Assembly: GCA_013178015.1 (NCBI GenBank)
Contig: JABLXR010000001.1
Coordinates: forward strand, 1-64,000
Length of the DNA stretch: 64,000 nt
DNA from: Anaerolineae bacterium
GTDB taxonomy: Bacteria; Chloroflexota; Anaerolineae; DRVO01
Direction of reading: 5' to 3'
A model generated the notes under the pieces. The model made no database searches. It had not been told where the DNA came from and was given only the letters and a program-made list of their open reading frames with translations. Positions 26,766 through 29,622 of the stretch are shown in pieces. Position 1 is the first letter of the stretch, and every line of letters starts with the position of its first letter. The translations under genes and the position numbers were made by a program.

Positions 26766-27260
26766 ATGCCCAAGCCCGTGGCCCGACGCGAGGCCAAGCC
26801 TAACAAGACCATCGCCATGCGTCAGCTGGACAACCTGGGCGTGCCCTACCAGGCCTCCTGGCACCGGCCCATCCACGATGCCGAGACGGCCGCCCAGGAG
26901 CGCGGCATCCCCCTGTCGCAGATCGTCAAATCCTTGCTGGTGCTGTTGCCTGGCCGCAGGTACGCTCTGGCTCTGGTGCAGGGCGACAAGAAACTCAGCC
27001 TGCACAAGCTAGGGACAGTGCTGGGGCAGAAAGGGCTGGAGATGGCTCCCCACGACCACGTGGCGATAGTGACCGGTTACGAGCCAGGCTCAGTCAGTCC
27101 ATTCGGGCTCAAGCGTCACCTACCCATTGTGGTGGATCAGGCAGTAATGGAGCTGGAGCAGGTGAGCATCAGCGGAGGCCGCGCCGATGCCGCAATCAGT
27201 CTCACACCGGGGGATCTGCTCCGCGCCACAAAGGCGACCGTAGCTGACATCACGCAGTGA
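26766..27260 (+). CDS. YbaK/ProX-family aminoacyl-tRNA deacylase
   Basis: YbaK-type proteins hydrolyse mischarged Cys-tRNA(Pro) and related aminoacyl-tRNAs. The catalytic lysine lies in QIVKSLLVLL, followed by a strand region (YALALVQGDKKLSLHKLG) and the family signature GYEPGSVSPFGLK. 164 residues, typical for the family. The start ATG 26766 lies 37 nt after the oxidoreductase, preceded by purine-rich GGAAGGAG. Its stop codon runs directly into the 7-bp repeat arrays that separate it from rel. Confidence 0.88.
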   Translation: MPKPVARREAKPNKTIAMRQLDNLGVPYQASWHRPIHDAETAAQERGIPLSQIVKSLLVLLPGRRYALALVQGDKKLSLHKLGTVLGQKGLEMAPHDHVAIVTGYEPGSVSPFGLKRHLPIVVDQAVMELEQVSISGGRADAAISLTPGDLLRATKATVADITQ

Positions 27261-27371
27261 TACGTGACACGTGACACGTGATACGTGATACGTGATACGT
27301 GACATGCAGCGTCAGTCACGCATTACGTATCACGCATCACGCATCACGTATCACGCATCACGTATCACGCA
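27261..27371. repeat. Opposed 7-bp tandem arrays filling a convergent intergenic gap
   Basis: The left arm (27261-27302) is six exact heptamers, TACGTGA or CACGTGA. After a 13-nt centre, the right arm (27316-27371) is eight heptamers, mostly TCACGCA or TCACGTA with one TTACGTA. Each arm is the approximate reverse complement of the other, so the whole can form a long hairpin in DNA or in RNA from either gene. The repeats begin at the base after the ybaK stop and end at the base before the rel stop. The element may end transcription from both sides. Confidence 0.9.
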
Positions 27372-29564
27372 TCATCCTACCAGCCGCCTCGCCTCCAGCA
27401 CATTGGGGAGGTGCTCCAGACGGGCCAGGGTGCGGCTCAGCTGGGCCATGTTGCGGATCTCCAGCGTGGCCGTGATGGTGGCCATGTTCTCCTTCTTGTG
27501 GGTCACCACGTTGGCGGCGCTCATGTTGATGTCTTCGTCCGCCACCACGGCCGCGATATCCCTCAAGAGGCCGCCCCGATCCCAGGCGCGAATGTGCACC
27601 GACACCGGGTAGCGGTGCTCGTCATCGCCTCCGCCCCACTCCACCTCGATCATCCGCTCCGGCTCGCTGCTATTGAGGATGTTGGGGCAGTCGCGCCGGT
27701 GCACCGTTACCCCGCGGCCACGAGTCACGTATCCGATTATGTCGTCTCCGGGCACGGGCCGGCAGCACTTGGCCAGGCTAGTGAGTATGCTGCCCACCCC
27801 GCGCACGTGGATCTCGGACACAGCCGCCGGCGCCTGCACGTCCTGTAAGGGCTCCTCGACCGGCGGCCTCTCCTCCGTCTCCAGCAGCCGGGTGGCCACC
27901 TGCTGCGTGTTCAGGTCGCCGTAGCCGATGGCTGCGTGTAGGTCGTCCACCGACTCATAGCCCAGCGCCGCCGCCACCTGATCCAGGCTCCCCTGGTATC
28001 CGAGGCGCTTCAGCTCACGCTCCAGCATGTCCCGGCCGAGGGAGATATTCTGCTCCCGATCCTGGCGCTTGAACCAGGCGCGTATCTTCTGCCGGGCTCG
28101 GGCAGTACGCACGTAGCCCAGGTCGGCGTTGAGCCAGTCCCGGCTGGGACCGCCCCGCTTGGCCGTAAGTATCTCGACTTGGTCGCCGCTCTTCAGGTTA
28201 TAGTCGAGTCCTACCAGTTGCCCGTTGACCTTCGCCCCTCGGCAACGATGGCCCACGTCGGTGTGCACGTGATAGGCGAAGTCTATGGGCGTGGCACCGG
28301 CGGGAAGGTCGATGATGTCGCCCTTGGGCGTGAAGACGTACACTCGATCGCGGAAGACGTCTGTCTTGACGCTATCGAGGAAGTCCCGCGCGTCGGTGAC
28401 GTCCTGGCGCCACTCCATGAGCTGCCGCAGCCAGGCGATCTTGTTCTCGAAGATCACGTCGCGACGGGCGCCTGGCTCCTTGTAGCGCCAGTGAGCGGCG
28501 ATGCCGTACTCGGCGGTCCGGTGCATGTCCCAGGTACGGATCTGCACCTCGAGCGGCTTGCCCCCCGGACCCACCACAGCGCTATGGAGGGACTGGTACA
28601 TGTTGTCCTTGGGCGTGGCGATGAAGTCATCGAAGGTGCCATGAATGGGACGCCAGAGCGAGTGGACCACCCCTAGGGCAGCGTAGCAGTCCTGGACCGT
28701 GTCCACTATTATGCGCACGCCGCGGACGTCGTAGACGTGGTCGAAGTCCAGGTCCTTGCGCTGCATCTTCTTGTAGATGCTGTAGATATGCTTCGCGCGC
28801 CCGGTGACCTCGGCCTCGATGCCTTGTTGGTGCAGGCGCTCCCGCAACAGGGCAACAATCTGCTGGATCTCGGTGTCCCGGTCCTGGCGCCGTTCCTCCA
28901 GGTCGCGGGCCAATTGCCGATACCCCTCCGGGTCCAGATGACGCAGGGACAGATCCTCCAGCTCCCACTTCATCTGCCAGATGCCCAGACGGTTGGCCAG
29001 GGGAGCGAAGATCTCCAGGGTCTCCTGAGCGGTCCGTCTACGCTTGTCCTCCGGCATGGCGCCCAGGGTGCGCATGTTGTGAAGCCGGTCCGCCAGCTTG
29101 ATGAGGACCACCCGCACATCGTCCACCATGGCGAGGAACATCTTGCGCAGGCTCTCCGCCCTCGCGTCCGCCTGAATCCCTTCCTGCAGTCGGCCCATCA
29201 GGTCTATGTGGCTCAGCTTGGTCACTCCATCGACCAAAGCCGCGACTTCGTCGCCGAACTCCCGCCGCACATCCTCCAGCGAGACTCCGGTGTCCTCCAC
29301 CACGTCGTGCAGAAGGCCAGCGATGATGGTACGCGTGTCCAGCCGCAAGTCCGCCAGGATCTCGGCCACCGCCAGAGAGTGCTGGATGAACGGCTCTCCT
29401 GAAGCTCGGGTCTGGCCCTGATGCGCCGCGGAGGCAAAGGAGTAAGCCCGCGCCACCGCGGGTTGCTCCGTCTCCGGGATCCTATCTCGCAAGGAGCGGG
29501 GCAGCCCTTGCACTTCCTGGGTCACAGCTTGCTGCGACCGCACCAGCGCCGTTTCGGCAACCAT
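27372..29564 (-). CDS. rel: Bifunctional (p)ppGpp synthetase/hydrolase Rel
   Basis: Makes and degrades the alarmone (p)ppGpp. The N-terminal HD hydrolase domain is intact (FIQHSLAVAEIL, GLLHDVVEDTGVS, KLADRLHNMRTL). The synthetase domain shows HIYSIYKKM, YDVRGVRII, TPKDNMYQSLHS and LEVQIRTWDMH. TGS (FTPKGDIIDLPAGATPIDFA) and a C-terminal ACT domain (VHIRAWDRGGLLRDIAAVV) follow, with the CRPVPGDDIIGYVTRGRG linker. The intact HD pair supports a bifunctional enzyme. ATG 29564 has AAGG at 6 nt; an ATG at 29570 abuts it. Transcribed from its own promoter at 29623-29651. Confidence 0.95.
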   Translation of the reverse strand: MVAETALVRSQQAVTQEVQGLPRSLRDRIPETEQPAVARAYSFASAAHQGQTRASGEPFIQHSLAVAEILADLRLDTRTIIAGLLHDVVEDTGVSLEDVRREFGDEVAALVDGVTKLSHIDLMGRLQEGIQADARAESLRKMFLAMVDDVRVVLIKLADRLHNMRTLGAMPEDKRRRTAQETLEIFAPLANRLGIWQMKWELEDLSLRHLDPEGYRQLARDLEERRQDRDTEIQQIVALLRERLHQQGIEAEVTGRAKHIYSIYKKMQRKDLDFDHVYDVRGVRIIVDTVQDCYAALGVVHSLWRPIHGTFDDFIATPKDNMYQSLHSAVVGPGGKPLEVQIRTWDMHRTAEYGIAAHWRYKEPGARRDVIFENKIAWLRQLMEWRQDVTDARDFLDSVKTDVFRDRVYVFTPKGDIIDLPAGATPIDFAYHVHTDVGHRCRGAKVNGQLVGLDYNLKSGDQVEILTAKRGGPSRDWLNADLGYVRTARARQKIRAWFKRQDREQNISLGRDMLERELKRLGYQGSLDQVAAALGYESVDDLHAAIGYGDLNTQQVATRLLETEERPPVEEPLQDVQAPAAVSEIHVRGVGSILTSLAKCCRPVPGDDIIGYVTRGRGVTVHRRDCPNILNSSEPERMIEVEWGGGDDEHRYPVSVHIRAWDRGGLLRDIAAVVADEDINMSAANVVTHKKENMATITATLEIRNMAQLSRTLARLEHLPNVLEARRLVG

Positions 29565-29622
29565 GTCCATCCTTCTAGCGAGAGACCGATGCAGGTCCGG
29601 GGAACACTAACCTTCATTACGG

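Follow-up and report, generated by a model that had tools for sequence, protein, structure and literature searches.

Opposed heptamer arrays between convergent ybaK and rel genes belong to a dispersed family of inverted repeats at gene 3' ends

How does the gap between two convergent genes come to be filled, base for base, by two opposed arrays of 7-bp units, and what could such a structure do? In the window, the stretch of 64,000 nucleotides of Anaerolineae bacterium DNA that was analysed (contig JABLXR010000001.1, positions 1 to 64,000), the 111 nt between the two stop codons are exactly positions 27261-27371. The stop codons that bound this gap are the TGA at 27258-27260 on the plus strand and the TCA at 27372-27374, which is TGA on the minus strand. 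The locus comprises the following features.

26766-27260, plus strand: YbaK-type gene (aminoacyl-tRNA editing), ending in a TGA stop that keeps the left arm's register
27261-27302, minus strand: left arm, six heptamers reading YACGTGA on the plus strand and TCACGTR on the minus strand, with the GTGA strand inward
27303-27315, no strand: 13-nt centre CATGCAGCGTCAG, unlike the centres of other arrays and unlike the orthologous gap of the congener G001
27316-27371, plus strand: right arm, eight heptamers TCACGYA, one of them TTACGTA
27372-29570, minus strand: bifunctional RelA/SpoT-type gene, its stop codon abutting the right arm in register

The arms and the centre account for the whole gap (42 + 13 + 56 = 111 nt), and the initial annotation, which described six and eight opposed units filling the gap around a 13-nt centre, was exact, centre length included. 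Its gene names, ybaK and rel, are upheld at family level, by an aminoacyl-tRNA editing domain in the former and by a RelA/SpoT product carrying HD, TGS and ACT domains in the latter. Specifically, the left arm reads TACGTGA CACGTGA CACGTGA TACGTGA TACGTGA TACGTGA, and the right arm TCACGCA TTACGTA TCACGCA TCACGCA TCACGTA TCACGCA TCACGTA TCACGCA. The periodicity, originally called perfect, is so for the 7-bp register and the TCACG core but not for positions 6 and 7, which vary as Y and R. Both arms are called as period-7 arrays (TRF). In the window, up to 6 TCACG cores follow one another at 7-bp intervals, compared with 1-2 in 60 dinucleotide shuffles, and lag-7 identity peaks at 27/28 in the array, against 21 or less in 30 shuffles and 18 in the rest of the window.

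The array is neither a product of chance nor unique. The genome-wide search for TACGTGA/TCACGTA arrays that the initial annotation had proposed reveals a multi-copy, dispersed repeat type whose usual place is the 3' end of genes. The pattern TCACGNATCACGNATCACG has 118 matches in the 4.57-Mb source genome (G000) and its reversed control 0, and inverted arrays built from the unit TCACGYR number at least 24 there, of 80-139 bp each, together with several single arms. Every pair runs from (YRCGTGA)n through the centre to (TCACGYR)n, with the opposite polarity in 0/24. The centres measure 11-57 nt and are mostly unrelated, and the arrays of G000 are not, as MITE copies would be, alike throughout with the centre included. 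The only clear sharing of a centre in this genome involves two arrays 500 bp apart with a small gene between them (L033, 3031-3145 and 3558-3665), whose centres are about 79% identical and whose outer flanks are unrelated; comparison of the two sequences suggests that here a whole array was copied locally. Single heptamers outside arrays occur at expectation in G000, and a dispersed uptake-like word was rejected on this ground. Intergenic DNA outside the arrays shows no general 7-periodicity in either G000 or G001, Rfam yielded only sub-threshold miRNA-precursor hairpins, and the array strings had no match in relevant papers within the literature searched.

The position between ybaK and rel is also occupied in the congener. 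In G001 the two genes are likewise neighbours and convergent, with a RelA/SpoT protein that is 83% identical, and the 79-nt gap between them is again array-filled, with GTGA heptamers from the stop codon and TCACG heptamers at the end; the units, however, are fewer, and both the spacers and the centre differ. A unique and unconserved array, which together with read-through of both transcripts was to be read as a neutral microsatellite, is thereby not what is found. The whole of G001 contains only about four TCACG arrays, and at the other matched sites examined it is mostly without one: the L048 site is 22 nt long in G001, and three matched sites (L185, L188, L190) hold stem-loops where G000 carries an array. 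The expansion in G000 is as such lineage-specific and the rel gap an old position, as judged against one congener, a comparison in which gain and loss are not separable. At the gene end matched to L037, G001 has an inverted 7-periodic hairpin (L192) with a different, GTGGNCA-like unit (lag-7 z 4.4, -70.8 kcal/mol); at this gene end the layout is kept and the unit looks as if it had been replaced.

Convergent gaps, such as the one between ybaK and rel, are favoured by the family but are no requirement, since the 24 arrays of G000 lie in 9 convergent, 14 co-directional and 1 divergent context. With the arrays of G000 and of the contigs pooled, convergent and divergent gaps stand at 30:8, compared with a background of 103:79 among gene pairs (p 0.011, genes called with a simple codon-bias caller written for the analysis), and the convergent excess in G000 alone gives p 0.07. 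The stop-side boundaries are more strictly defined: of those within -21 to +7 nt, 27/29 are offset by a multiple of 7 nt, since the gene has its own stop codon in the TGA of the unit, and the register recurs in 60/75 cases in contigs from other organisms. A stop-codon cassette, with a stop in every inward-strand unit, holds for TCACGYR and was rejected as a general principle. Other period-7 units carry 160 stops on the inward strand versus 88, an excess that base composition explains; stops are just as numerous when unit positions are permuted (149 against 171, sd 12), and column shuffles yield the same number. Downstream, the next start codon lies at most 48 nt from the array end in 14/14 co-directional arrays of G000 and at most 35 nt in 12/14. 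This short distance leaves little room for a separate promoter, and the genes 3' of co-directional arrays are therefore probably transcribed by read-through of the array. For the same reason, efficient termination at these arrays is unlikely. A 95-nt array (L051, 2995-3089) sits at the junction of two genes that we take to be pheS and pheT because of their synteny and recognisable sequence, rather than from a family search, and the congener has 17 nt there (L182).

The long hairpin that was expected to form in either transcript is borne out by the predicted folds. For the ybaK-rel array these reach -66.1 kcal/mol on the plus strand versus -36.6 in shuffles (z -9.5) and -91.4 kcal/mol on the minus strand versus -49.9 (z -11.3), and across the arrays the hairpins are predicted at -50 to -102 kcal/mol, with a median of -73. 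The role suggested for this structure, a bidirectional terminator, fares less well: the hairpin is there on both strands, but several results speak against general efficient termination. Besides the closeness of the next start codon, the arrays show the stem-loop of a Rho-independent terminator but lack a U-tract directly after the stem, with 0/14 co-directional arrays of G000 having at least 5 T in the 8 nt that follow. Hairpin energies of co-directional arrays do not differ between sense and antisense (n=101, p 0.21), and RNA selection visible through G-U wobble was rejected because these energies are alike. The hairpins of G000 also remain as stable when the order of the units is shuffled. 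These RNA tests remove what usually marks an intrinsic terminator, and structure alone is poor ground for calling such hairpins terminators. A role of the hairpin in RNA would be compatible with the null results, as hairpins of the predicted strength may be so stable that no refinement is needed.

The composition of the units provides further insight into how the arrays arise. Among unconstrained units lying between exact cores, the TCACG core deviates at 12/860 positions (1.4%), position 6 is C in 84, T in 81 and A in 7 units, and position 7 is A in 138, G in 30, T in 3 and C in 1. Similarity between adjacent units does not exceed that after shuffling (64 vs 69.9, sd 5.6), the unit orders of the two arms of one array are unmatched (51 vs 52.0, sd 3.0), and different arrays have no long spacer strings in common beyond chance. 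The spacers behave like independent draws. Slippage combined with inversion, which the initial annotation had proposed as the origin, thus has no visible trace in either the neighbours or the arms. Recent slippage or block copying was rejected, as neighbours are not similar and spacer strings are not shared beyond chance, and so were arm-to-arm covariation and palindromic copying, neither of which is seen in G000. Whether for slippage, for the copying of arms or for the copying of arrays, the visible signs are weak, and those of old events may be erased.

Beyond the two congeners, the strict inverted TCACG pattern occurs in 4/400 sampled genomes and is rare even within the phylum, and three or more units in a row are found in 17/60 near relatives. 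A contig scan returned at least 119 stretches, mostly from Chloroflexota MAGs; among those listed, a few, some of which could be misbinned, are labelled Bacteroidetes, Acidobacteria, Verrucomicrobia, Lentisphaerae or Desulfococcaceae. The same contigs hold inverted arrays with other units, 26 with a period of 7 and 16 with a period of 8 but very few at 6 or 9-12, in a survey of periods that is biased in that periods 1-4 were filtered and the contigs were chosen for TCACG arrays. Their units are unrelated to TCACG (for instance ATTRGAG, AGTAGAC, AATTATG and GTAATTGG), and examples of these non-TCACG inverted 7- or 8-bp arrays lie at the following positions.

L090, 3134-3203
L099, 4322-4392
L113, 7354-7428
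L129, 3590-3659
L148, 4881-5068

What these arrays have in common is their polarity: the inward strand has more G than C in 41/42 of them and in 15/15 unit clusters, compared with an inward G bias of just 42:25 in ordinary hairpins of the same DNA.

To our knowledge, heptamer repeats are over-represented in bacteria for no accepted reason. Within this landscape, the TCACGYR arrays look like neither a one-off nor a classical terminator, and the nearest known kind, itself little explained, is that of the GGGANTN heptamers of Xanthomonas, likewise inverted and 3'-proximal. Their inverted pairs number 70 in one genome and 75 in another; they adjoin or overlap stop codons, lie in convergent gaps in 16% versus divergent gaps in 7-8% of cases, and share 83% of their sites between two Xanthomonas species; a regulatory role was sought and not identified, with G-quadruplexes as the favoured thread (PMC4692102). 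Both families have a 7-bp unit in which some positions are constant and others degenerate, lie between genes in many inverted pairs close behind or overlapping stop codons, occur in convergent gaps twice as often as in divergent ones, differ in length between species and place the G-rich strand as coding strand downstream of open reading frames. Held against the features of the Xanthomonas type, the arrays of G000 thus show tandem 7-bp units, inverted pairs and a stop-adjacent position with divergent gaps avoided, but no G-tract. As YRCGTGA lacks three consecutive G, G-quadruplexes cannot be the reason here; moreover, the TCACGYR arrays are nearly always paired, and most of their sites are not found in the congener.

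A second comparison is with REPs, which lie 3' of genes and supply stop codons to open reading frames (PMC3733652). Like the REP/BIME elements of the GTAG and CGTC families (PMC3733652), the arrays are dispersed palindromes 3' of genes, in convergent and co-directional gaps, that supply stops and are predicted to form hairpins. Their arms, by contrast, are 7-bp tandem arrays with mostly unrelated centres and no GTAG or CGTC tag: where a REP is a tagged palindrome of 20-40 bp, these are heptamer arrays of 80-139 bp with, by eye, no common end tag. No RAYT transposase flanked by arrays was found in G000, whose one Y1_Tnp (C21:22580) has no arrays beside it. The TAACTGA heptamers of Beggiatoaceae and cyanobacteria are direct repeats, in 169 sets with one indirect repeat, and lie mostly just upstream of start codons (PMC4679880). 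They resemble the present family in being heptamer arrays with a patchy distribution across phyla, and differ from it in their direct orientation and their place on the start-codon side. A further precedent comes from plasmid centromeres. Omega heptads read WATCACW. In the parS sites of pSM19035, contiguous heptads of mixed orientation, at least four of which are needed, are the protein targets of the ParB omega (PMC9499535). Contiguous, unspaced 7-bp sites in opposed orientations are common to both, but the TCACGYR arrays occupy dozens of gene-end loci rather than a few plasmid centromere loci, and no cognate protein was identified here.

What is observed, then, is a multi-copy family of fixed polarity that sits flush behind genes in a 7-bp register, combines an invariant 5-nt core with a YR spacer, and has expanded in a species-specific manner. 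We give roughly an even chance to an account in which a heptamer family of fast turnover accumulates behind genes and its transcripts act as REP-like hairpin barriers. Inverted TCACGYR arrays, with GTGA inward on both sides, would turn over quickly, build up directly 3' of stop codons and persist mainly as tolerated, partly selfish repeats. A transcribed copy would fold, according to the predictions, into a hairpin of 50-100 kcal/mol and would thereby, as REP/BIME elements do, form a barrier where the mRNA ends or close by (exonuclease block, partial attenuation) instead of working as a terminator with a U-tract. The copy between ybaK and rel would be old enough for its presence in the congener, and may be kept as an insulator of the convergent genes. 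Counter to a tolerated repeat, the core is far steadier than drift allows while position 6 is free to be C or T, which suggests that the core is recognised by something, and the convergent excess together with the occupancy common to two matched sites is a hint of selection. Tolerance alone also leaves strict inversion and G-inward polarity over many unrelated units without explanation, and the combination of 7 bp with these two properties across unrelated units is covered well by none of the accounts.

A selected bidirectional 3'-end element, in which a long hairpin would end or separate convergent transcripts without a U-tract, through pausing and the hairpin or through Rho and processing, is possible although unlikely. 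It draws on the stable predicted folds of both strands, on the hairpin array in the same gap of the congener and the G001 hairpins at L185, L188 and L190, and on the convergent bias, but sits poorly with the missing T-tracts, the equal energies of the sense and antisense strands, the nearby starts behind 12/14 co-directional arrays and an array at the pheS-pheT junction where the congener manages with 17 nt. The steady core with its degenerate YR step and unit-to-unit independent spacers would also be expected of an operator array, bound side by side at contiguous 7-bp sites as by the ribbon-helix-helix ParB (omega) of pSM19035, for which the plasmid heptads offer a precedent (PMC9499535). This reading is quite improbable, however, as the arrays avoid divergent gaps, where promoters lie, heptamers are not enriched outside arrays, and the only two RHH_1 matches in G000 have no heptad arms near their starts; furthermore, unrelated 7- and 8-bp units share the layout, and no single binding specificity explains all of them. 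Most doubtful in our assessment is a templated end-extension, in which G-rich 7- or 8-mers would be added to the two ends of a DNA break, or to a 3' end folded back on itself, before joining. Such a process, akin to head-to-head telomere fusions, would explain the inversion, the G-inward polarity that is nearly universal among arrays of other units, the mostly unrelated centres and the lack of signs of slippage or arm copying. Against it, no enzyme is known for this reaction, and the two neighbouring arrays with a common centre point to whole-array copying at least once. A link to a reverse transcriptase, Ku or RAYT was rejected, as searches of G000 returned neither RVT_1 nor Ku and the lone Y1_Tnp stands without arrays.

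The G-inward inverted arrays of 7 or 8 bp might also constitute a class defined by its architecture, built at gene ends by a unit-independent process that swaps the unit over time (compare the L037 gene end), an idea that we consider improbable. If it were true, the TCACGYR arrays would exemplify a generating mechanism not recognised before. The best-studied heptamer case is tied to G-quadruplexes, and the TCACGYR family presents the same architecture in a unit that is unable to form them; as its neighbours show the architecture with many other units, architecture and unit sequence are separable. This makes testable the questions why the unit is 7 bp, why the arrays are inverted and why they lie at stop codons.

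Outside G000, some further arrangements were seen. A contig of Desulfococcaceae HSG8 (L152, 6539-6743) carries a 17-unit TACGTGA/AACGTGA arm outside Chloroflexota, for which transfer or misbinning is possible, and one IMG/VR viral contig with an inverted array (L216, 5912-5967) may be a misclassified piece of chromosome. In one genome (G052: C83, C110, C287), TCACGAA arrays of up to about 18 units are one-armed, with no paired arm among the matches listed. Unlike G000, some Chloroflexia share the centres of TCACG hairpins between loci: in Oscillochloris Ja1-D5 (L145, L156) and in G287, one centre is common to several of these hairpins, which gives them the look of a copied element.
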